From: Acinetobacter towneri DSM 14962 = CIP 107472
GTDB taxonomy: Bacteria; Pseudomonadota; Gammaproteobacteria; Pseudomonadales; Moraxellaceae
Reading direction: 5' to 3'
Length of the DNA stretch: 64,000 nt
Assembly: GCF_000368785.1 (NCBI RefSeq)
Contig: NZ_KB849695.1
Span: 81,982-145,981 of the forward strand
In this document: piece by piece, positions 55,455 to 59,730 of the stretch
Position numbering within the stretch: the first letter of the stretch is position 1
Layout of the letters: each line of letters begins with the position of its first letter
The notes under the pieces: model-generated
What the model was told of the DNA's origin: nothing
Database searches by the model: none
What the model saw: the letters and a program-made list of their open reading frames with translations, nothing else
Program-made: the position numbers and the translations under genes

Positions 55455-57167
55455 CTACTGAATAAACAGTAATGCTAAACGCACCTGATCATAGCCCATG
55501 CGTGGACTAGTCGCTTCAACAATCGGGCGCAGTTTAATTGCGCCATCATCGCTGAAGTGCTCTGCATTTTGACGCTTCATTAATCGCTTATAAATTTTAC
55601 GGACCTCTTCCACCACTTCTTCACCTGGATGTGCCACTGAAATATCCAGATTTTGTTCTTTTTGCAAACGTGCCAAATGGTTGATAATAGTTGCAGGAGT
55701 TAAACCTCGCTCTACTGCAATATCCTGAATATCATAACCTTCTTCAAATAAAGCGCGGGTTTCATCTAACGTGGCAGTCGCATAATTGGTTTTTCCACCT
55801 TTGGCAATTTTCTTTTCATTGCGCAAAATTTCGGTTTCGTTCAACGTGCCACCACAGTGACGAATAAATGCATTATGTTGTGGTGTTAAATCCATCAGCT
55901 CATAGTGCGTTTCAGCTTCTTCAGACAATTCCTGAAAACGGCGGTCAGCCTTAATCGCTAAACTGTCGAGTTCCAAAGCTTGGCTATTAAATCCCAATAA
56001 ACGCAAACCGCTTAACGATTTTAATCGTGACAACGCCACATAACCCTGCCCTTTTTCAAAAGTATGGCTAAGATTGATTTCTGCCGCTTCTAAGGTCATA
56101 CCTTGTGATTTGTGGATGGTAATTGCCCATGCCAAACGCAGCGGAATTTGCTGGAAACTGGCAATGGTTTTGCCTGCATCATTATCCACCGACCAAGTTT
56201 CAGGCTCGACCAGTAATACTGTGCCATCGGTCAATTTTACTTTAGGCAAAATGCCGTGATCATCATCTTCTTCAAAGCCAATCACTTCGCCCAAACTGCC
56301 GTTGATATAGCCCATATCGAAGTTGTTTTTAACAAACATCACTTTGGCATGTTTTTTTAGATTTAAAATTTCAGGCGCACGTACGGATGATTTCAGCGTT
56401 TCAATCAACTTTTCATTGCCATCACACACGGCATCAAACTGCTTGCTCTCAGTTTCAATTTCATTCAAATGCTTAAAGTTGATATTGTCCACATCCATAT
56501 TGTGCGTATATAAACGCGTGAAAGTGTCGCCAATATCTTGATGACGGGTGTGTTCCAAAGCCTGAATATGTTGATGATCAATACTTTGTACACGAATCGC
56601 ATTGAGAATGTCATTTAAGTAGTCATCGCCCTGACGGTGCTGCTCGGTTAAATAACAGACCCGAAATTTAGCTTCGACCCACGCATCTGACATAAAACAG
56701 AACTTGTCACGATTGCGCTCATCGTTTTTTCCCACAGGCGGTAACTGGAAAAAATCTCCCGCGACAATCACCTGAATACCACCAAAAGCGTCATCACTGT
56801 CTTTGAAATATTTTAAAACCTGATTGACCAAATTCAGTTGCTTAGCATGCAACATCGAAATTTCATCAATAATCAGCACTTGCGCATTTTCTAAATGTTC
56901 TTTGAGATATTTGCGCTCTTTCATATTTTTCAGGTCGGCATCGGACAAAAAATCTTTAATACCAATGCCTGCCCATGTATGAATGGTCATGCCATTCATG
57001 TGCGTTGCAGCAATGCCTGTAGATGCCGTAATTGCCACTGGCACTTTGCGCGCTTTTAAATAATTGATGTATTGATTCAGGGTATAGGTTTTACCCGCAC
57101 CAGCCGAGCCTGTTAAAAAGACATTTTCGCCTGCTTTTAAAAGTTTAAGTGCAGTTTCCTGTTTCAT
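55455..57167 (-). CDS. Pif1-like superfamily 1B helicase with C-terminal helix-turn-helix
   Basis: This 570-residue protein has Walker A TGSAGAGKT (residues 20-28), Walker B LIIDEISM, QLPPVG and the late motif TIHKSQGMTLE, in the order of Pif1/RecD2-type DNA helicases. Beyond about residue 470 it has a helix-turn-helix (YDIQDIAVERGLTPATIINHL). It likely unwinds DNA 5' to 3'. Bacterial Pif1 proteins are linked to G-quadruplex and stalled-fork processing. The next gene is 103 bp away, on the same strand. Confidence 0.9.
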   Translation of the reverse strand: MKQETALKLLKAGENVFLTGSAGAGKTYTLNQYINYLKARKVPVAITASTGIAATHMNGMTIHTWAGIGIKDFLSDADLKNMKERKYLKEHLENAQVLIIDEISMLHAKQLNLVNQVLKYFKDSDDAFGGIQVIVAGDFFQLPPVGKNDERNRDKFCFMSDAWVEAKFRVCYLTEQHRQGDDYLNDILNAIRVQSIDHQHIQALEHTRHQDIGDTFTRLYTHNMDVDNINFKHLNEIETESKQFDAVCDGNEKLIETLKSSVRAPEILNLKKHAKVMFVKNNFDMGYINGSLGEVIGFEEDDDHGILPKVKLTDGTVLLVEPETWSVDNDAGKTIASFQQIPLRLAWAITIHKSQGMTLEAAEINLSHTFEKGQGYVALSRLKSLSGLRLLGFNSQALELDSLAIKADRRFQELSEEAETHYELMDLTPQHNAFIRHCGGTLNETEILRNEKKIAKGGKTNYATATLDETRALFEEGYDIQDIAVERGLTPATIINHLARLQKEQNLDISVAHPGEEVVEEVRKIYKRLMKRQNAEHFSDDGAIKLRPIVEATSPRMGYDQVRLALLFIQ

Positions 57168-57270
57168 AAGACCTATACCATGATTGAACGGCTATAGCCT
57201 AACGAGTTTTGAGCCAAAAGTTAAGGCTCAAGTCCGTGAATACGACAACAGTTGTCTTATGACTTGTAAC

Positions 57271-59274
57271 TTATGACTTTGATGGTAATTGTGGATTCAG
57301 CCATGCAATAAACTGCGCTGCGATAGTAACCAACAATTGTTCCGCTTTTTGATTATTAGGATATTCCAATTGATCAAACACAAGTTGCCCATTCCTAAAG
57401 TGACAGCCCAAGGTCAATTGCTGCACATAATGTGGTGATGCCATGTGAAACGCCACATATTGTCCTTCACTCATGGCTTTGGCATAGCTCAGTGCCAAAC
57501 AGTGTTTAAAGTTTTTCGATTCTTCAATAATACGGTCTAAATCGGTCAGTTCTTCAAAACACCAACCTGAAAAGTACAATATTTGCTGCGGGCTTTTCGC
57601 CTGCCATGTGCTACATGGAATTTCTTTTTTCAGTTTGGCAAATAGCTCTGCTTTATACACTTGTTGATGCCAATGCACCGCTTGATGAAACAACCCCAAC
57701 CAACTCAAACTTTTTGGAATATGCGTATGCGCTGCAAAATACTCCAGTAAATAGTCACGCACATAACTGTCAAATACCGAAATACGTGTATTGTGCGCAC
57801 GTAAATAAAAACGCTGCCGAAAATCATCAGGCTGAATCTGATAACGCTGCAATACCGTATAAAAGTCACGTTGCTGCTGACTATCAGACTGAATATAGTC
57901 CAACAAAGCTGTCGGTAAATCTTGGGTGATCTGCTGTAAATACAACATATAACTTTGCATGACACGACTTAAACGCCGAAATACATGCTTGACCAAATGC
58001 TCATCGTGTTGCGCCACGGTTTTCAGCAAAGTCATCCATTCATCCAAATACAAAATAGAAGGACTAATGGCAACCCGCGGATCATCCAACGATTGTTTTT
58101 CGCCATGCGGCATTAAACTGACATTATGCGCATGTGCGAACCACGCTTGCTGTGTCGCATATACATTACAGCTTTGAATGAACATACGTGCGGCTGAATA
58201 TTGAAAATATTGCAAAGTTGCCAAAATAATCCGTGGATGTGCCTGACTACAATCGACAAAACTGAGCGCAGTCACTGCCACCCGCACACTGGTATGATGA
58301 ATATTTAAACTAAGCCAATCCAACACTTGTGCAGACTGTTTAAACAGCCAATTCACCGCACGTGGATAATCAAATAACGGCAGTTTGGCGACTTTCTTTT
58401 GCCAAATTAAAGGGCAAGATTTTAAAAAATGCGGTTTCGCCAAAGCATCGGAACGCTGCCACACCTCACGGTGCATTAAACGCGCAAAACCCAATAAATG
58501 CCCATGTTCTTCGGCATGTCGATACAACAACCGAATATCATCCTGATGATCGATTAAATCCTGCAAATTAAATCGTTCAGGAAATGAAATACTTAAAATA
58601 CGATGCATGGCTTTAGGTAGAAATTCTGCCGCACTAAAACAAAAATCATCATAACTTTGCATCAGTGCTTGCACTGGCAAAAAGGTTTCACCCTCTACAA
58701 ATTCCAAAGCACACAGTGTCGATAAAGTAGTTAAAACATCTTCAGGAATGTGCTGCCCTTGCTGCACAAATTTGGTCAATACTGGTTGATACTGATCGTC
58801 TGCCTGCATTAATGCCTGATCTAAAATTTGTGCCTGCATTGCATCTAAATGCAATAACAATTGCTTAACCCGTGCTGCACCATCTACCCACAGGTAAACT
58901 TGCTGCAGAATCAATTGTCGCAATTGCTGCGCCTGATTACGCAAAAATAAAGAATGCTGCGGTTTTAAATCCCCAGTCAAAAAATGCAGATCATGTAAGA
59001 AAAAATCTTCAAATGCTTCTTGCTGTTTCCCCGCAAATTCAAAGTGAGTTTCTATTAAATTTGTATGCGATTTTGGCGGATAAAATTCAAGACTAAACAG
59101 ACCATTCAGCAATTCGACCCGATGCTGCAAAGGATCGATCCGAAACAAATTTTGTGCTGTAAAATGTCCAACCAAATCCATTTGATCTTGATAGATTTCT
59201 GCGGCCACACTGGAAATACGAACCAATTGCTGTGCAACGGCATGCAACTGGCTATGCTGGCAAATTGGCTGCAT
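57271..59274 (-). CDS. Large uncharacterised protein with PcfJ-like C-terminus
   Basis: This 667-residue protein has no signal peptide or membrane helix. The long N-terminal part (about 1-560) is helical and rich in Gln, His and Leu, and I recognise no domain. The C-terminus (about 585-640) has the pattern IEESKNFKHCLALSYAKAM followed by a YVAFHM strand, TLGCHF and QLEYPNN, which resembles PcfJ-family proteins of conjugative plasmids and phages. Its biochemical role is unknown. It is the gene upstream of the Pif1-like helicase and may share its transcript. Confidence 0.6.
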   Translation of the reverse strand: MQPICQHSQLHAVAQQLVRISSVAAEIYQDQMDLVGHFTAQNLFRIDPLQHRVELLNGLFSLEFYPPKSHTNLIETHFEFAGKQQEAFEDFFLHDLHFLTGDLKPQHSLFLRNQAQQLRQLILQQVYLWVDGAARVKQLLLHLDAMQAQILDQALMQADDQYQPVLTKFVQQGQHIPEDVLTTLSTLCALEFVEGETFLPVQALMQSYDDFCFSAAEFLPKAMHRILSISFPERFNLQDLIDHQDDIRLLYRHAEEHGHLLGFARLMHREVWQRSDALAKPHFLKSCPLIWQKKVAKLPLFDYPRAVNWLFKQSAQVLDWLSLNIHHTSVRVAVTALSFVDCSQAHPRIILATLQYFQYSAARMFIQSCNVYATQQAWFAHAHNVSLMPHGEKQSLDDPRVAISPSILYLDEWMTLLKTVAQHDEHLVKHVFRRLSRVMQSYMLYLQQITQDLPTALLDYIQSDSQQQRDFYTVLQRYQIQPDDFRQRFYLRAHNTRISVFDSYVRDYLLEYFAAHTHIPKSLSWLGLFHQAVHWHQQVYKAELFAKLKKEIPCSTWQAKSPQQILYFSGWCFEELTDLDRIIEESKNFKHCLALSYAKAMSEGQYVAFHMASPHYVQQLTLGCHFRNGQLVFDQLEYPNNQKAEQLLVTIAAQFIAWLNPQLPSKS

Positions 59275-59730
59275 ATACGCTCCTCATGCTTAAGTGCGGT
59301 CTATCTAAGTGTCATCTTATTTTTATTTGATTGCACCGACTAGACCCATCACGTGATACATCCCTATTTTTTGTTTTTTATTTCCATCTGCAAAAAGTGG
59401 ACAATTCTTCAATCGAGCTTAAGCCACTTATTAATTGAATTACACCTGAAATTTATGTGAACGGTATCTACACCTTAAAATTAGAGATACAAAAACACTA
59501 TAAACAAGATTTAAGCCCTTGCCTATAGCCTGCGCACAACTTCAGAAAAAATAAAAACCCATTAAAAAACAAATAAATTTCAATTGATTAGTTTGCATTA
59601 TTTACTCAGAAAATAGGGTTGGTGTTTGGTAGGTAGGATTTCACCACAAAGCATTGAATACTCAAATCACGGTTCAACACCGCGATAACAACACATTATT
59701 CCAATACCCAATGCAAGAAGGAATCTGAGC
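59275..59730. promoter_or_regulatory. Divergent intergenic region before the alcohol dehydrogenase gene
   Basis: About 456 bases separate the PcfJ-like and alcohol dehydrogenase genes and hold both promoters. A 10-base palindrome ATCACGTGAT lies at 59348-59357. The alcohol dehydrogenase start has an AAGGA site. I see no sigma-54 promoter pattern. Confidence 0.45.

Follow-up and report, generated by a model that had tools for sequence, protein, structure and literature searches.

PcfJ proteins are known from plasmids, phages and scattered bacterial genomes. The PcfJ of the conjugative Enterococcus plasmid pCF10 (WP_011109626.1) has 447 residues, matches the Pfam family PF14284 at 1.1e-43 and adjoins a gene annotated as belonging to the AcrIIA9 family. 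Used as a query, it retrieved one viral contig, while another PcfJ protein, L177, retrieved three plasmid records and no phage record. Of two other PcfJ genes (L206:7657-8775 and L183:3149-4771), one lies directly beside GmrSD and the other, on a Marinomonas plasmid, is separated from HsdR by three genes. In the Acinetobacter genome G071, a PcfJ protein (L204:9526-11229) adjoins a protein with the polyvalent-protein domain LPD1, and this copy therefore resembles a gene of a mobile element. The literature searched, in which most subscription journals were lacking, yielded neither a function for any PcfJ protein nor a paper on PF14284 or on PcfJ in Acinetobacter; the name does not occur in the available part of a paper on polyvalent proteins (PMC5512222). 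For this reason the functional steps proposed below are all inferences.

The window considered here, a stretch of 64,000 nucleotides from Acinetobacter towneri, contains a chromosomal gene whose product ends in a PcfJ domain and whose downstream neighbour encodes a Pif1-like helicase. The features referred to in the text are as follows.

57271..59274, minus strand: PcfJ-domain gene encoding 667 aa (open reading frame; a single 100% match in its own genome, no internal stop)
57730..59274, minus strand: residues 1-515, the N-terminal and central part, largely helical and without a convincing sequence relative outside the family
57274..57714, minus strand: PcfJ homology region, residues 521-667 (hhalign)
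57352..57522, minus strand: codons E585 to N641, spanning the PcfJ signature E585, H591, C592, Y597, Q635, N641 (alignment)
57274..57603, minus strand: predicted GNAT-like arrangement, residues 558-667 (AlphaFold2 prediction and VIA-align)
57194..57225, minus strand: promoter-like element of the helicase, between the two genes (conservation)
55455..57167, minus strand: Pif1-like helicase with a C-terminal HTH_40 domain (PIF1 PF05970, 3.7e-37; HTH_40 PF14493, 5.7e-15)
59275..59730, no strand: intergenic stretch of 456 bp from the PcfJ-domain gene to a divergent gene (open reading frame positions)

The 667-residue frame reported in the initial annotation proves to be an intact gene maintained by purifying selection. 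It begins with ATG and lies on the minus strand, which that annotation left unstated; the plus strand of the same interval contains 34 stops. In 19 of 19 pairs of relatives, hand-picked as close and with a PcfJ dS above 1 in three of them, dN/dS was 0.032-0.142 for the PcfJ-domain gene and 0.006-0.039 for the helicase gene. The frame is thus no chance open reading frame. Its G+C content is that of the host (41.1%, against 41.0% for the window), and its nearest named relative is from A. towneri, at 92%. The promoter of the gene is presumed to lie within the 456 bp that separate it from the divergent gene, which we take from its sequence to encode an iron-containing alcohol dehydrogenase. A consensus promoter scan of this stretch did no better than shuffles, and promoter and terminator scans at the locus were near chance.

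Comparison of the window protein with the A. indicus orthologue (L139) gives 94-98% identity in each 50-residue block of residues 1-250 and 46-86% over the remainder, so that a recombination tract seems, from these alignments, to end inside the gene. In L003, taken as the same species as L139, identity is 99% for the dehydrogenase next to the gene and 90% for the helicase. The orthologue of genome G022 (L063:4002-6281) is a single open frame of 759 aa, 92 residues longer than that of the window, mostly through one insertion.

On the evidence of profile comparison, the C-terminus of the protein is a true but divergent PcfJ domain covering approximately residues 521-667. The window copy taken alone falls under the Pfam threshold, matching PF14284 over residues 570-641 with an E-value of 0.009 and 16.3 bits (cut-off 25), and family alignments were therefore built. 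These were A1, of 25 members, and A2, of 47, the latter made up of the window protein and the proteins of 46 named loci out of 59. The loci not included in A2 were L098 (stop inside the gene), L144 (partial) and 11 near relatives (L097, L101, L105, L107, L111, L113, L114, L115, L118, L121 and L127). PF14284 matched 27 of the 47 members at E<=1 (best 2.3e-6), and in a search of the genus it matched 23 of 119 genomes at E<=0.001. Ten of these were above the curated cut-off, eight of them by virtue of the orthologue at the helicase locus. With hhalign, the family aligned over residues 521-666 to eight PcfJ proteins (P 96.5, E 8e-10) and matched a set of 18 at P 97.1 and E 5.1e-11; an HMM of the family's C-terminal part recovered 15 of these 18 at E below 0.02, the E-values being for the set of 18. 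Across the 18 other PcfJ proteins and 12 of the 47 family members, the signature residues, which were derived in this analysis and from no publication, are near-invariant: E and C are kept in 30/30, N in 29/30, Q in 28/30, Y in 27/30 and H in 25/30. The window protein retains all six, as E585, H591, C592, Y597, Q635 and N641. The PcfJ-like C-terminus of the initial annotation is in this way upheld.

The same comparisons bear on whether the protein is merely an Acinetobacter orphan whose likeness to PcfJ is convergent or spurious. Such a reading can point to the window copy, below the Pfam cut-off and, with the whole of its genome, short of E 0.001 in the search of the 119 genomes. It can point also to the pCF10 protein, which alone matches the family profile weakly (P 7.0), and to the PHROG families, none of which matches the 667-residue protein. 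A full-length profile of the 18 PcfJ proteins found no match in the window's genome either, although such an empty answer is uninformative. Against it stand the positive profile comparisons, the orthologues over the cut-off, the six signature residues in register and 15 viral fold matches at E<=0.001, of which 10 are named PcfJ and five are unnamed. We regard an orphan as very improbable. No solved structure matched the protein in sequence.

The remainder of the protein presents a different picture. The initial annotation spoke of a long unrecognised N-terminus, and residues 1-515 indeed have no convincing Pfam or PcfJ match, a Pfam scan of the 47 family members, the window protein among them, returning no convincing family there. 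HMMs of residues 1-230, 225-515 and 1-515 failed to recover any of the 18 PcfJ proteins, the best E-value being 0.027 (residues 225-515). DUF6165, seen in 4/47 members with a best E of 0.0051, was set aside as weak, as was an NCBIfam hit of the protein to PRK06761 with an E of 0.027; a resemblance of residues 291-313 to one other PcfJ, noticed by eye, was abandoned when HMM and profile tests of residues 1-515 were negative. The region is modelled at high pLDDT within the AlphaFold2 model of the whole protein.

This model has a mean pLDDT of 90.5, and a separate model of residues 520-667 has one of 89.0; the C-terminal elements follow the order strand-strand-helix-helix-strand-strand-strand-helix. 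In the predicted structure the PcfJ domain corresponds in layout to the initial two thirds of the GNAT acetyltransferase fold, a likeness that is likely but unproven since the best Z-scores of 7 to 8 are not distinctive, Foldseek gives weak results and hhalign finds no homology. With the domain alone as the query, VIA-align reached at best Z 7.4 (rmsd 4.0, 104 residues aligned), where models lacking a clear match typically reach Z 7 to 8. Acetyltransferases by title accounted for 45 of the best 50 matches; the other five we take to be GNAT-fold proteins. The whole protein gave a best Z of 7.1, and nearly all the matches listed were GNATs, the exceptions being YceB, which is clearly unrelated, and one protein of unknown function. 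The best Foldseek E-values were 2.0 when the whole protein was the query and 0.13 with the domain, the latter with unrelated folds interspersed.

At the level of sequence, hhalign against GNAT profiles gave probabilities of at most 0.3% in nine comparisons, with a GNAT-versus-GNAT positive control at 99.5%. The GNAT side of this test comprised 31 proteins from two genome searches, and column-shuffled controls scored as high in 19/60 cases for the family profile, 1/60 for the other PcfJ domains and 3/60 for both together. Homology to GNATs is accordingly not claimed. The CoA-binding loop of GNATs carries the motif R/Q-x-x-G-x-G/A. At this position the window protein has Q635-L-E-Y-P-N-N641, in which the glycine is missing; counted by eye, the glycine is absent from 12/12 family rows and present in 14/18 rows of other PcfJ proteins.

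The distribution of the gene is narrow. Among 119 Acinetobacter genomes 61 match the protein, 60 through an orthologue and the 61st through a different PcfJ protein. A pattern-based scan of a collection holding one genome per species (84,980 species) yielded 59 loci, all from Acinetobacter save one from an unclassified Moraxellaceae MAG, and in a search of the family Moraxellaceae the 39 matching genomes of 249 were confined to one of 16 genera. Relatives were found in none of the viral contigs, 50,697 phage records and 72,556 plasmid records searched, and the gene is therefore not mobile now. The initial annotation saw no other mobile-element signs in the region, which agrees with the absence of any integrase or transposase recognisable by eye among the open reading frames of the 50-64 kb part of the window, and of any tRNA in the window.

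Where the helicase site was inspected in non-carriers (29 of 59 genomes) it contained no PcfJ gene, although one of these stretches is cut off by the end of its contig immediately short of the helicase. A helicase tree of 88/119 genomes (59/60 carriers and 29/59 non-carriers) is divided by a branch with an SH-aLRT of 96, on one side of which 58/61 rows are carriers and on the other 1/27. The minimum number of gains and losses on this tree, by a quick method, is five. A single early gain with mainly vertical descent thereafter, about three losses and one outlier would account for the pattern. The three losses seen within the carrier clade are too few for testing a link with the rate of the helicase. 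Between the tree distances of PcfJ and those of the helicase, taken over 57 of 59 named loci, the correlation is 0.84, a value reached in 0/1000 permutations, with PcfJ diverging 4.06 times faster. The helicase of genome G029 is 99% identical to that of the window.

The two genes are separated by a gap of 103 bp (57168-57270). The helicase gene also lies on the minus strand, which places the PcfJ-domain gene upstream of it, as the initial annotation had it. That annotation had also proposed beforehand, as a refutation test, a count of how often the pair stays adjacent across Acinetobacter. The helicase adjoins on the same strand in 60/60 carrier genomes, that is 60 of the 61 genus hits, and in 59/59 named loci, two samples of largely the same species. 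Across the 57 named loci used for counting neighbour changes, a different gene came to lie upstream of the PcfJ-domain gene at least eight times (seven if counted on the helicase tree). On the far side of the helicase at least 15 such changes took place, and the link between the two was never broken. The next gap, beyond the helicase, is of comparable length, with a median of 103 bp. Equal constancy is found in control pairs, DUF441-RSU (20/20) and c2-c3 (34/34) being always adjacent where both were seen; by Pfam, c2-c3 is a helicase with DUF3418 together with an ACP-synthase-III-like protein. Other control pairs were less stable, KCH-LysR at 8/19 and ADH-LIP at 15/19.

Between the two genes lies an element, CTTAAC-(N)-TAGGCTAT, whose position and conservation suggest that it is the helicase's own promoter. 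The full element, its patterns having been defined after inspection of the same sequences, is present in 59/59 carrier loci and nowhere else in them (1,618,752 bases counted over both strands), and in 7/29 loci without the PcfJ gene. In 26/29 of the latter a looser core occurs no more than 60 bp from where the helicase gene starts, against a background of 0.005 per 60 bp. In the window the 3' end of the element runs into a short palindrome, GGCTATAGCC, possibly the site of a regulator. A hairpin between the two genes in the window is, by eye, not kept in relatives and was discarded. An operon with the helicase is weakened by the intervening promoter-like element and by the equally stable control pairs, though read-through between the genes may occur. 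Thus the adjacency reported initially holds, whilst the coupling to the helicase that it implied is weakened by that element, by the presence of the helicase in 119/119 genomes as against 60 for the PcfJ-domain gene, and by the equally constant pairs. In two loci, L130 and L153, the helicase gene is in two pieces, possibly through an assembly fault, and on a second contig of G070 (L065) there is a second Pif1-like helicase copy, 45% identical and without an adjoining PcfJ gene. Near other PcfJ genes no relative of this helicase was found in the 17 regions examined, 15 of them with a labelled PcfJ gene.

We favour, with about an even chance of being right, the reading that Acinetobacter has domesticated this member of the PcfJ superfamily as a resident gene, encoding an enzyme or a binding module, for which a link to the helicase is possible. 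About one gain in the genus and mainly vertical inheritance thereafter fit the distribution of the gene, which is under purifying selection. Its C-terminal PcfJ domain may be built on a GNAT-like half fold and serve as a small module for catalysis or ligand binding, the site being made up of E585, H591, C592, Q635 and N641, and the mostly helical N-terminal part of 515 residues could act as a lineage-specific scaffold which selects the target. Expression would be independent of the helicase. Least certain is the role: the protein might take part in nucleic-acid metabolism or help to limit foreign DNA, perhaps within the helicase's pathway; for the DNA-processing or nucleic-acid-protection role suggested in the initial annotation, the present evidence speaks neither for nor against.

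A more specific version joins all these parts. Here a GNAT-derived half fold, in which a cysteine-asparagine active site has replaced the CoA loop, was domesticated once, acquired a new targeting region of some 500 residues and became a modifier or loader for the genus-wide Pif1-like helicase. We think this improbable. If true, it would mean a chromosomal DNA-maintenance function for a family previously tied to mobile elements.

Two narrower functional readings, each rather unlikely as it stands and about equally likely when set against one another, divide over what the helicase neighbourhood means. It may mark a single DNA-processing unit, in which the PcfJ protein serves to load, guide or modify the helicase's substrate and the genes are co-inherited or co-expressed by need. 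The pair has never separated in 60 genomes and 59 named loci despite at least seven to eight upstream and at least 15 downstream changes of neighbour, the helicase is present in all 60 carriers and the distances of the two proteins co-vary (r 0.84). Vertical descent alone predicts such co-variation, however, and other pairs without an obvious common role are equally constant. The helicase is also found in 59 genomes without the PcfJ-domain gene and has its own promoter-like element.

Alternatively the neighbourhood may be an accident of insertion, the gene having been caught from a phage or plasmid and now opposing such elements as a chromosomal exclusion or defence factor, with its fast divergence reflecting the contest. 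PcfJ proteins do occur on plasmids and in phages, and two other PcfJ genes lie near the restriction genes HsdR and GmrSD. The PcfJ-domain protein is less conserved than the helicase in 19/19 pairs, one allele is mosaic, and the gene is absent from 59/119 genomes. Its mainly vertical inheritance with few losses is nevertheless unlike that of most defence genes, dN/dS never exceeds 0.142, and a PADLOC search gave only Cas5d, at a chance-level E of 0.026.

Under the favoured reading of a resident, domesticated gene, a family best known from plasmids and phages has become an ordinary part of the chromosome in roughly half of the sampled Acinetobacter species, in every case immediately upstream of the helicase gene. 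The chromosomal gene can be removed in non-clinical bacteria, its alignment is deep, the model is confident and the candidate residues are few, and the question of PcfJ function is thereby made testable. The promoter-like element that the helicase has for itself, in spite of the gene just upstream, cautions against inferring an operon from adjacency alone.

A number of parallels can be drawn with known proteins. For about 104 residues the strands and helices are predicted to succeed one another as in GNAT acetyltransferases such as PA3270 and RimL; these possess the full fold, whereas the PcfJ domain is without its last third, the window protein lacks the CoA-loop glycine, and hhalign found no sequence homology to them. 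Phage PcfJ-like proteins, for example those of Listeria phage LP-064 and Bacillus phage Shbh1, are the best viral fold matches of the full model. The likeness is local, as the query-normalised TM-scores are at most 0.23 among the best 50 matches, and phage and viral records hold no close relative of the window protein.

Closer in taxonomy is a second Acinetobacter PcfJ, found at a different locus in 3/119 genomes (G046, G112 and G084) as frames of 511-525 aa. It belongs to the same genus and has a PcfJ domain, above the Pfam cut-off in G046, but the N-terminal part of the G046 protein is unlike that of the window protein. Identity to the G046 copy is 41% for the one in G112 and 38% for the one in G084. 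The gene (L202:5971-7533, L203:5661-7193) converges on a RapA gene in G046 (L202) and, in G112 (L203), on a neighbour of the same length.

Compared with pCF10 PcfJ, the window protein is longer, at 667 aa, is chromosomal and has no AcrIIA9-type partner; the N-terminal part of pCF10 PcfJ is unlike residues 1-515, and direct profile comparison between the two is weak. Both share a C-terminal domain with the signature E...HC...Y...Q...N, and the C-terminal HMM of the Acinetobacter family matches pCF10 PcfJ with an E-value of 4.9e-5 (for the set of 18).
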